This document shows positions 24,615-30,548 of a DNA stretch of 64,000 nt, in pieces. Origin of the DNA: Candidatus Latescibacterota bacterium. GTDB lineage: Bacteria > Latescibacterota > UBA2968 > UBA8231. The stretch lies in assembly GCA_022826515.1 (NCBI GenBank), contig JAJDUT010000021.1:7997-71996 (forward strand), written 5' to 3'. Each line of letters opens with the position of its first letter. Position 1 is the first letter of the stretch. The position numbers were made by a program, and so were the translations under genes. A model generated the notes under the pieces. The model searched no databases and was not told the DNA's origin. It was given only the letters and a program-made list of their open reading frames with translations.

Positions 24615-25151
24615 TCACTGTATCAATCGGTCAACTTGAGCCAAAATTTGATCGGGCGTCGGCCGGTCGGAGAGGCTTTCCCCGACGTATTTCCATTCGA
24701 TGTCACCCTTGGGCGAAACGATGACGGCGGACGGCGTCGCGACGCCGTCATTCAGCAGGTTGTAAACTCCGTAGTCCTTGGCTACCTCGGCGTCTTTGTC
24801 TGACAGAATAGCGAATTCAGCGCCGGTAAGTTCCACCATTTTCAGCGCGTCGGCGATGTCATCCGTGCTGATCGCCGCAAGCGACACATTGCGCTCTAGA
24901 AACTCGGGATACACATCTGCCAACTCACCTAGTTGGCTCCGACAGGAACCTCAGAAGAATCCTCGGTAAAACAGCAGTACCGCCGCCGCGCGGTTGTCGA
25001 GTAAGTCGGACAAGGAAACCGAAGTCCCATCCGCCGCAGGTAAGGTGAATTCAGGCGCTTGACCGCCCGTGGAGACCGGATTGGACCTGCAGCCGACGAG
25101 GGCGATGAGGGTCGCAGTTACCAAGGACAGAAGTACTGCGCTACGGTGCAT
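24615..25151 (-). CDS. Peroxiredoxin/thioredoxin-fold lipoprotein, probable selenoprotein (UxxC)
   Basis: Read through an in-frame TGA (24953-24951) the frame gives a 178-residue AhpC/TSA-like protein. ATG 25151 is preceded by AGGAGAAAG. A lipoprotein signal ends in LIALVGC. The core runs APEFTLPAADGTSVSLSDLL, then AVLLFYRGFF-U-GSCRSQL, where peroxiredoxin-like proteins have WCxxC; the recoded codon therefore sits on the first redox cysteine, giving U-G-S-C. The rest (AAISTDDIADALKMVELTGA, VATPSAVIVSPKGDIEWKY) is intact and in the same frame. A 7-bp hairpin lies at the right distance for a bacterial SECIS. TGA serves as a normal stop elsewhere in the window. The alternative is a nonsense mutation. 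Likely function: thiol/peroxide reduction at the membrane. Confidence 0.85.
24915..24953 (-). promoter_or_regulatory. SECIS-like hairpin downstream of the in-frame UGA
   Basis: On the coding strand GCCAACT-AGGTG-AGTTGGC forms a perfect 7-bp stem with a 5-nt loop (stem arms 24937-24931 and 24925-24919). The loop starts 20 nt after the UGA and has a G in its second position, as described for bacterial SECIS elements. The hairpin codes for SQLGELA and so must also satisfy the protein sequence. Confidence 0.72.
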
Positions 25152-26986: not shown

Positions 26987-28255
26987 ATGCACTTGAAACG
27001 AATACTATTTCCGCTCCTTGTCGGCCTGATCGCCTGCGGAGGCGACGACCGCCCGCGTCCCGGCGAACCAACCACGGTGGTGTTGTGGGAGTTCGGGGGC
27101 GTGCCGGGTCTGCGCGCATGGGTGCAGCAGGCCGTGGCCGACTTCAACGCCGCGCGCAGCGACATCCAGATCGAGCTGGAGTTCCGCGACTGGGCGACGC
27201 AGCGCGAGAGCTTGATCAGCACCACCATCGTCGGCGATGGGCCGGATATTGTGCGAGTGCATCACAAGTACTCGGTCGAGTTCGGCGAGTTGGGAGGGCT
27301 GTACGCACTGGAGAATTTCCCCGACTTCCCCCAGGTCAAGGAGCGCATCCTCGACAACGTCTGGGAACTGGTCGAATACGACGGCAAGCACTACGGCCTG
27401 CCAGTGACCATGCTGCCCTTCGTGCTGGCGGTCAACACCGACATTATGGGTCGGATGGGACTCGAAGTGCCCAAGACTTGGGACGAGATGCTGGCGCTGG
27501 GGCCGCAATTCGCAGGCACGGGGATCGAGCCTTTTACCATGCCTGGGGGCGTCAATCTGGACACAGCCTACCGCTTTTTGCCGCTGCTGTACAAAGCGGG
27601 TGGGCGCGTCTTTGACGAGGATTGGTCGGCCGCCGCCTTTAACGGCCCGGCCGGGCAGGCGGCGCTGGAGTTTCTAGTGGAGATGAAAAACAAGGGCTAT
27701 TTGCCTCCCGGCAGCGCGGCCTATCGCTTCGACGAAAACGCCGCGCACTGGTCAACCGGCAAGGCCGCGCTATCGATTGAAGGGCCGTGGTGGCAGGATA
27801 TCGTCCACGGCAACTACGACTTCGATTTGAACAATCTGGCGCTGGCGCAAATTCCCACGCCCACAGAGCACATCGGACCGCACGAATCGCGGACGTTGCT
27901 CGACGTAATTATGATTGCCATAACGGGCTATACCAAGGTGCCCAACGAAGCTTGGGAAGTGGTCAAGGCGCTGGATTTGGACCATCCGGTCTGGCGCAAC
28001 CCCAACCCGACCATGGGCGGCATTCCCACGCTAAAGGCAGCCTATGCCGAAGGCGTGCAGTCCGATTACATCGACCTAGATCAACTCGCCATCGCCGGGG
28101 CCAATGGGCTGGGTTGGCCGGGCCATCCGGCGATTACCCAGATCCAGCGGCACATTGCCGACGCGGTCAATATGGCGCTGACCGGCACGCTAAGCCCCAA
28201 GGAGGCGCTGGACTTTGCCGCCGAAGAAGTAAACGAGGTATTGAGTGATTACTAA
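26987..28255 (+). CDS. Sugar ABC transporter substrate-binding lipoprotein (family 1)
   Basis: A 422-residue extracellular solute-binding protein. A lipoprotein signal ends at LLVGLIAC (cysteine 17). The core has family-1 features: TTVVLWEFGGVPGLRAW, ADFNAARSDIQIEL, PKTWDEMLALGP, KAALSIEGPWW and NPNPTMGGIPTLK. It delivers an oligosaccharide or similar solute to the two membrane permeases (28245 and 32741). No matching ATPase is in the window; a shared MsmX/UgpC-like ATPase encoded elsewhere is likely. The gene overlaps the first permease by 11 bp. Confidence 0.88.
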   Translation: MHLKRILFPLLVGLIACGGDDRPRPGEPTTVVLWEFGGVPGLRAWVQQAVADFNAARSDIQIELEFRDWATQRESLISTTIVGDGPDIVRVHHKYSVEFGELGGLYALENFPDFPQVKERILDNVWELVEYDGKHYGLPVTMLPFVLAVNTDIMGRMGLEVPKTWDEMLALGPQFAGTGIEPFTMPGGVNLDTAYRFLPLLYKAGGRVFDEDWSAAAFNGPAGQAALEFLVEMKNKGYLPPGSAAYRFDENAAHWSTGKAALSIEGPWWQDIVHGNYDFDLNNLALAQIPTPTEHIGPHESRTLLDVIMIAITGYTKVPNEAWEVVKALDLDHPVWRNPNPTMGGIPTLKAAYAEGVQSDYIDLDQLAIAGANGLGWPGHPAITQIQRHIADAVNMALTGTLSPKEALDFAAEEVNEVLSDY

Positions 28256-29144
28256 AGGTGCGCTGCGCAAAAACCTGACGCCGTACTATTTCTTGCTGCC
28301 GGCCCTGCTGGTCTTGGTGGTCGTCATCCTCTACCCGGTGTTCAGCAACCTGATTATGAGCTTGTACAAGGTGAAGCTCTTTCGCGGCGCTGGCGACGAG
28401 TTCATCGGCCTGACTCACTACGCCAAGCTCTTCGGCAGCCGCACCTTCGTCAACAGCATCTGGAGCTCGGTGCGCTTTACGCTCTACTCCCTGCCGGTCG
28501 CCTTCGTCTTGGGCTTGGGGATGGCGTTGATCTTCAACGAGATTCGCAAGTATCGGCCGGTCTTTACCGGCTTTCTGCTCGTCCCTTGGGCCATCGCCCC
28601 AGTGGTGACCGGCTACATGTGGCGCTGGCTCTTCCACGACAGCTTCGGCCTCGTCAATCATACGCTCCTAAGCCTCGGCTTCATCGACGCCAATGTCCCC
28701 TGGCTAGCGCAGCCAGATGCGGCTATGGGCGCGGTGGTGGTGGCCAATGTCTGGCGCTTCATGCCCTACATCACCATCATGCTGCTAGCGGGTTTGCAGG
28801 GCGTGTCCGCCGAGCTGTACGAGGCCGCGCACGTCGATGGAGCCAATGTGTTCGGGCGCTTCTTCCACGTGACCCTGCCGCAGCTCAAACACGTGATCGG
28901 GGTAGTCTTCCTCTTCGCCACCATCTGGATGGTCAACGACTTCGCGCTGATTTTCATAATGACCGAGGGCGGCCCGGCCAAGGCCACGCAAGTAGTGCCG
29001 ATTACAGTCTATCGCATCGCCTTCGAGCACCTGCGGCTCGGCAAGGGCGCGGCAGCAGGGCTCATTCTGCTGCTCTTTTTGCTGGCCATGAGCATCGTCT
29101 TCATCCGCGTGCTCTTCCGCGAGGAGCGGCGGGACGACGATTAA
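28245..29144 (+). CDS. Sugar ABC transporter permease, MalF/UgpA type
   Basis: A 299-residue permease starting with GTG 28245 inside the end of the binding-protein gene. Six membrane segments are visible. The EAA-like cytoplasmic loop that contacts the ATPase reads ELYEAAHVDGANVFGRFFHV. The last 60 codons (from IMTEGGPAKATQVVP) are duplicated at 30349-30548, after an inserted Rpn-type gene. Its partner permease is 3.6 kb downstream at 32741, an unusual separation for a normally contiguous pair. Confidence 0.9.
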   Translation: MITKGALRKNLTPYYFLLPALLVLVVVILYPVFSNLIMSLYKVKLFRGAGDEFIGLTHYAKLFGSRTFVNSIWSSVRFTLYSLPVAFVLGLGMALIFNEIRKYRPVFTGFLLVPWAIAPVVTGYMWRWLFHDSFGLVNHTLLSLGFIDANVPWLAQPDAAMGAVVVANVWRFMPYITIMLLAGLQGVSAELYEAAHVDGANVFGRFFHVTLPQLKHVIGVVFLFATIWMVNDFALIFIMTEGGPAKATQVVPITVYRIAFEHLRLGKGAAAGLILLLFLLAMSIVFIRVLFREERRDDD

Positions 29145-30348: not shown

Positions 30349-30548
30349 TAATGACCGAAGGCGGCCCGGCCAAGGCCACGCAGGTGGTGCCGATTACAGT
30401 CTATCGCATCGCCTTCGAACACCTGCGGCTCGGCAAGGGCGCGGGCGCGGGCGCGGCGCTCATTCTGCTACTCTTTTTGTTGGCCATGAGCATCGTCTTC
30501 ATCCGCGTGCTCTTCCGCGAGGAGAGGAGAGATGCGAATGCGAATTAA
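30349..30548 (+). pseudogene. Duplicated 3' end of the sugar ABC permease
   Basis: About 200 bp repeat 28959-29144: MTEGGPAKATQVVPITVYRI, ending IVFIRVLFREERRD then ANAN and TAA. Nucleotide differences are mostly synonymous, with one in-frame GCGGGC expansion (GAGAGAA). No start or earlier domain is present. It lies between the Rpn-type gene and the WD40 gene. Confidence 0.85.

Follow-up and report, generated by a model that had tools for sequence, protein, structure and literature searches.

Positions 25151 to 24615 on the minus strand of a 64,000-nucleotide stretch of Candidatus Latescibacterota DNA (the window) very probably hold one selenoprotein gene, whose in-frame UGA is decoded as selenocysteine (Sec) at residue 67 and whose product would be an exported, lipid-anchored redox protein. 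By computation we observed the anatomy of the gene, a conserved UGA, covariation at silent sites of the hairpin that follows it, the Sec machinery in near relatives, and a predicted fold. It is the conservation of the TGA together with the silent-site covariation, not the hairpin alone, that carries the case for Sec.

Gene anatomy and conservation of the in-frame TGA

Translation of the minus strand, with TGA read as U, gives 178 codons from an ATG at 25151 to a normal TGA stop at 24617-24615, with a single internal TGA at residue 67 (24953-24951). The initial annotation had joined the two frames parted only by this TGA into one AhpC/TSA-like gene and had placed the TGA at the first Cys of a CxxC-type motif, and our results bear this out: against PF00578 (cut-off 26 bits) the N-terminal half alone scores just below the cut-off (25.4 bits, E 1.5e-5) and the C-terminal half alone gives E 1.4e-16, while the joined protein, with C in place of U, reaches 101.8 bits (E 3.2e-29), and the redox motif reads YRGFF-U-GSC. 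The protein has two features of a Prx-like UxxC protein, a PF00578 domain and a U in UxxC (here UGSC); the partner of Sec67 is Cys70 (24944-24942), which is Cys in all 35 of the distinct sequences compared below. Positions 25151-25089 encode a putative signal peptide, recognized by eye, with LVGC at residues 18-21, which we take to be a lipobox whose Cys21 would be lipidated; the nine close copies read LAGC or LVGC there. A Shine-Dalgarno-like AGGAG (25163-25159), likewise found by eye, lies 7 nt before the ATG. The same-strand gene upstream (26133-25162), weakly CBM9-like (CBM9_1 19.6 bits, under the cut-off of 23.4), ends 10 nt before that ATG, and its true start may lie inside the frame given here. 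Gene neighbours offered no functional lead and differ between the genomes looked at. The window contains no Rfam match at gathering scores and no tRNA genes. Elsewhere in it, the end of a sugar-permease gene (28245-29144) recurs at 30351-30548, next to a stretch that holds a 318-aa frame, and a WD40-repeat protein comes after it; L001 and L003 have the two permease genes side by side, and the arrangement in the window suggests an insertion that duplicated one flank.

A protein search returned 98 relatives, of which 92 begin after residue 67, two stop before it (both ending in FYRGFF) and four distant ones (31–38% identity) span it; annotation pipelines do split this gene, as had been predicted. 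One could take the 92 annotations at face value and envision two separate genes, one for a short lipopeptide and one for a 102-residue protein started after the TGA. However, such a split would cut the active site of one fold, ahead of the helix that carries it; the called start varies among the 92 pieces (query residue 80 in 70, residue 77 in 19), as with mechanical calling; and the hairpin is conserved at silent sites. We therefore consider two genes very improbable and treat the locus as one gene.

Conservation of the TGA was read in two sets of genomes. In a genome collection, all five loci found have the TGA at the identical position and are otherwise free of internal stops. Of 64 genomes of the phylum that were searched, 58 gave matches, and among the matches listed are 8 close copies (63–92% identity, one TGA each), four of the 8 genomes being the same as in the genome-collection loci. 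Counting the window, these 8 and L004, the TGA is present in 10 of 10 copies, so the alignment of homologues shows an in-frame UGA kept in 9/9 close copies where distant relatives have Cys or Thr. At the redox column, the best 30 loci of the phylum search have TGA in 25 and another codon in 5; further away in that search the column holds TGA, Cys or Thr (the last in TxxC peroxiredoxins). Cys occupies it in L041, L047, L094, L095, L099, P0096 and P0099, the last five of these being the Cys cases outside the phylum search, where others have Thr. A scan for viral copies found none. In-frame TAG or TAA codons in other redoxin matches were considered as recoded codons and rejected, as in the 12 stretches inspected the stop just precedes the gene start and is mostly the stop of the gene upstream.

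A nonsense mutation, in which the TGA killed a former Cys gene whose halves are now decaying, has in its favor that assembled metagenomes contain errors and that the evidence for the machinery comes from near relatives only. Against it, an identical TGA is found in the window and nine independent copies, and dN/dS is low on either side of it (0.04–0.17 upstream, in the 6 of 8 pairs that were computable, 2 being saturated; 0.19–0.34 downstream, in 8 of 8). The nine close copies have no further internal stop within the matched stretch, the check for frame damage that the initial annotation had named came out in favour of Sec, and the hairpin covaries at silent sites. The conservation of the TGA across genomes refutes a nonsense mutation, to which we give practically no probability.

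The hairpin and its silent sites

The hairpin after the UGA (24937-24919) has a 7-bp stem and a loop, AGGUG (24930-24926), starting 20 nt after the UGA. The published limits for a bacterial SECIS (bSECIS), as quoted in PMC13188914, are a loop of 3–9 nt, a stem of 4–16 bp, a G in the first two loop positions, a spacing from the UGA of 16–37 nt and an MFE of −7.5 or below; applied as numerical criteria rather than through bSECISearch, they all accommodate the window hairpin (5 nt, 7 bp, AG, 20 nt and −8.8 kcal/mol for the bare hairpin). The initial annotation had pointed to a perfect 7-bp hairpin of SECIS geometry, and the geometry stands, but its value as stand-alone evidence does not: when this peptide is recoded synonymously, 5.6% of the versions have a stem of at least 7 in the same place, compared to 0.60% (95/15858) of ordinary in-frame stretches, and among the window's TGA junctions of similar length, 15 of 61, this one included, have a hairpin of at least 6 pairs (G-U allowed). 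Folding of the downstream stretch, also looked to for support, provides none (z −0.61 for the 48-nt fold energy). All of the published limits hold for 17 of the 35 bare hairpins of distinct sequences, with those of L030 and L032 lacking 0.1 kcal/mol of the required energy. Taken alone, the hairpin is weak evidence.

Stronger evidence comes from comparing hairpins across two groups of bacteria. A search of 294 Dehalococcoidia genomes gave a match in 256, from which 25 stretches were used, namely seven (L069-L075) besides those of G004 and 18 hand-picked from the listed TGA matches, neighbouring arrays included; weaker TGA matches and the more remote Latescibacterota families did not enter the set. 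Filtering for the motif, with U required, yielded 32 places, and L068 and L071 were dropped as repeats of other rows. The 39 rows from Latescibacterota and Dehalococcoidia were reduced to 35 distinct ones by merging identical 48-mers. Because the set was chosen for the TGA, it tests the hairpin only and is silent on how often the TGA is kept.

Two codons in this stretch, Gln at +6 (CAA or CAG) and Leu at +10 (TTG or CTG), offer silent choices whose variable bases lie opposite each other in the stem. The table of these choices comprises 16 CAA-TTG, 15 CAG-CTG, 2 CAG-TTG and 1 CAA-CTG, with one row lacking the Gln, so that in 31 of the 34 usable rows the two facing bases vary in concert (Fisher p 2.1e-6); when rows are permuted inside five GC3 classes, p is 1e-5, the lowest value that 100,000 permutations allow. 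As a control, Gln/Leu pairs four codons apart in frames of at least 150 codons, from the window and the loci in hand, match in 166 of 317 cases (p 0.54). Neither codon +11 nor the third base of +8 is associated with the stem codons (p 1.0, 1.0 and 0.30), but the silent positions of Cys +3 and Tyr +14 are, more weakly (p 0.002–0.03), so composition explains part of the covariation signal. Mapped onto a protein tree, CAG_CTG requires 13 changes and CAA_TTG 10, of which at least 8 and at least 6, respectively, are forced by well-supported branches, and the pair has therefore switched many times. A second pair covaries at columns 18/34 (G-C in 16, C-G in 12, U-A in 1 and unpaired in 6 of the 35), and the covariation score of the whole stem, 0.214, exceeds that of the shuffles (0.107, with none of 500 equalling it) and that of slid positions (0.086 at most). 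Among the nine distinct close copies there are changes on both sides at 2 of 7 stem pairs. The pairing is not uniform: 29 of 35 rows lack a pair at the outermost stem column, 17/35, and 16 of 35 at column 24/28. Because the Gln/Leu covariation is absent from the control pairs, we conclude that it is the RNA that is under selection, which is what a bacterial SECIS would lead one to expect.

Selenocysteine machinery in near-relative genomes

The Sec machinery was read in near-relative genomes, whose contigs are 90–94% identical in DNA, rather than in the window's own. Individual contig identities to the window are 92.6% (G001), 90.2% (G002), 90.9% (G003) and 93.6% (G005), over aligned lengths of 8.9, 20.4, 19.6 and 13.1 kb, respectively, paralogous pieces included, and gene order is shared. 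Among the five genomes searched, selA is over the cut-off in four (G001, G002, G003 and G005), with none over the cut-off in G004, and selB in four (G002-G005), while G001 has a fragment that corresponds to positions 175-579 and lies at the end of a contig. All five have selD (L021-L025), each with one in-frame TGA in a UxxK motif (CGGU/CAGU), the motif known for Sec-containing SelD (PMC13188914); this in-frame TGA of selD, present in five genomes, is an internal positive control for Sec decoding. Genes for tRNA-Sec, 95 nt long and with anticodon TCA, are present in G001, G002, G003 and G005. An RF01852 match in G004 was rejected as tRNA-Sec, its anticodon reading GCT.

More broadly, selB is over the cut-off in 44 of the 64 phylum genomes, in 7 of the 8 with a close copy (the eighth being G001) and in 13 of 14 Dehalococcoidia genomes tested; in G198 a TGA copy is present and selB over the cut-off was not found. 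Few of the matches listed come from genomes without selB, which leaves too little contrast for a statistic on its co-occurrence with the TGA copy. G004 is a Dehalococcoidia MAG of 2.5 Mb, in which the contig of L004 is 87% identical to the window over 2.3 kb, an identity that reaches across the neighbouring OLD-type gene; this contig may reflect mis-binning or a recent transfer. Other homologues in G004, which belong to that genome itself, also bear a TGA.

That the frame stays open through the TGA would equally be expected if TGA had been reassigned to an ordinary amino acid or were read through by a near-cognate tRNA, without Sec. Yet TGA ends 14 of the 35 complete long frames of the window in addition to this gene, in agreement with the earlier remark that its use as a normal stop makes a reassigned code unlikely; it stands at the redox Cys/Thr column in the best phylum loci, as counted above; near relatives carry tRNA-Sec, selA, selB and selD; and the hairpin is under selection. 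Reassignment or read-through thus retains a very slight probability, and the reading of the TGA as Sec, proposed in the initial annotation, is upheld by the conserved TGA, the silent covariation and the machinery of near relatives.

Fold, known families and the wider group

The predicted model has a mean pLDDT of 89.5 (residues 1-3 and 7-22 are below 50) and a high-confidence fold of the thioredoxin/peroxiredoxin type, in which residue 67 lies just ahead of helix 68-86. The position just before such a helix is the usual place of the nucleophile in thioredoxin folds. By structure comparison, the model most resembles the solved structures of Bcp/PrxQ, 2-Cys Prx and AhpE peroxiredoxins; to the Bcp/PrxQ and AhpE structures 3hjp, 2cx3 and 1xxu the TM-score is 0.71–0.78, normalised by query length, but identity is 25–28%, and in two sequence alignments the residue opposite position 67 is T or S. 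In sequence alignments, the peroxidatic Cys of true peroxiredoxins aligns with Cys70 and not with Sec67. Peroxidase chemistry is therefore uncertain, and a thioredoxin-like selenenylsulfide cycle is just as plausible as a Prx-type peroxide cycle.

What we infer about Sec insertion, membrane location, substrate and reductant can be put as follows. SelB carrying Sec-tRNA(Sec) would bind the hairpin right after the UGA, and the ribosome would place selenocysteine at residue 67 with no termination. The product would be exported, lipidated at Cys21 and anchored in a membrane outside the cytoplasm, with Sec67-x-x-Cys70, at the helix start of the thioredoxin/peroxiredoxin-fold domain, as its probable redox centre. 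Its most likely activity would be the reduction of hydroperoxides or protein disulfides via a selenenylsulfide.

Selenoproteins of this kind have precedents. A Prx-like family with UxxC instead of TxxU was described in PMC1088965, Prx-like 1 is given as pfam00578 with UxxC in PMC2398784, and PMC13188914 lists a Prx-like thiol:disulfide oxidoreductase with UxxC or UxxU; PMC1794560 belongs to the same body of known work. Prx-like UxxC selenoproteins have thus been in print since at least 2005, and the window clade is a new member of that kind; a putative lipobox, a YRGFFUGxC motif and a hairpin written in Q-L-x-E-L codons may set it apart from the published subfamilies. A search of the open-licence literature on selenoproteins and Latescibacter, with supplements outside its scope, found nothing on the window gene, which does not establish absence from print; the terms sought do not occur in PMC12013277.

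Among NCBIfam models, 12 match the window protein at E ≤ 0.001 and none is over its cut-off (0 of 10 for the copy L033). The SelL-related NF040769 matches residues 31-129 (E 4.7e-14), but at 52.4 bits (64.1 for L033) compared to a cut-off of 120. The SelL motif is UxxU, whereas this protein has UxxC. PrxU (NF040737) shares superfamily and fold (E 5.3e-11), but scores 42.7 bits compared to a cut-off of 270, and the window protein has UxxC rather than the TxxU given for Sec-Prx (PMC13188914). The UGSC-containing selenoprotein family NF041046, named in the literature, has the same four letters, but gives no match to the window protein at E ≤ 0.001; UGSC is not fixed in the clade, as three other close copies read UGFC, UGLC or USxC.

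Other redoxins of the phylum also carry a TGA: a FYRGxWUPHC group at 12 loci (L034-L040, L042-L045 and L049), a RSASWUGxC group at 3 (L052, L053 and L055), a FFRGTWURRS redoxin at one (L051) and a TxxU-type peroxiredoxin at one (L048). Of such redoxins, five were tested besides L033, and none was over an NCBIfam cut-off. The Latescibacterota look rich in Sec redox proteins. In two Dehalococcoidia genomes (L076, G004:C198; L077, G353:C35), three Prx-like genes lie in tandem within ~2 kb, and the redox motif of each contains a single in-frame TGA; in L078 (G322:C48, minus strand, from ~2685 of the reverse complement) one frame contains two Prx-like domains and two in-frame TGAs, with motifs FYRGYFUGIC and FFRAWWUGSC, an apparent two-Sec fusion protein.

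Taken together, these findings correct a gene family whose members in the protein database are nearly all halves (94 of 98 relatives), and they extend Prx-like proteins with Sec to two groups of uncultured bacteria that have been little studied. The silent Gln/Leu codon pair is a clean example of how selection on a SECIS hairpin can be revealed, and the same test is usable on other candidate selenoprotein genes without experiment. There is perhaps an even chance that the window gene is part of a large radiation, so far unannotated, of Prx-like Sec proteins anchored at the cell surface in Latescibacterota and Dehalococcoidia, with Sec practically fixed, the SECIS lying in Q-L-x-E-L codons, and tandem arrays and a two-Sec fusion among its members, which would form a dedicated extracytoplasmic selenium redox layer.
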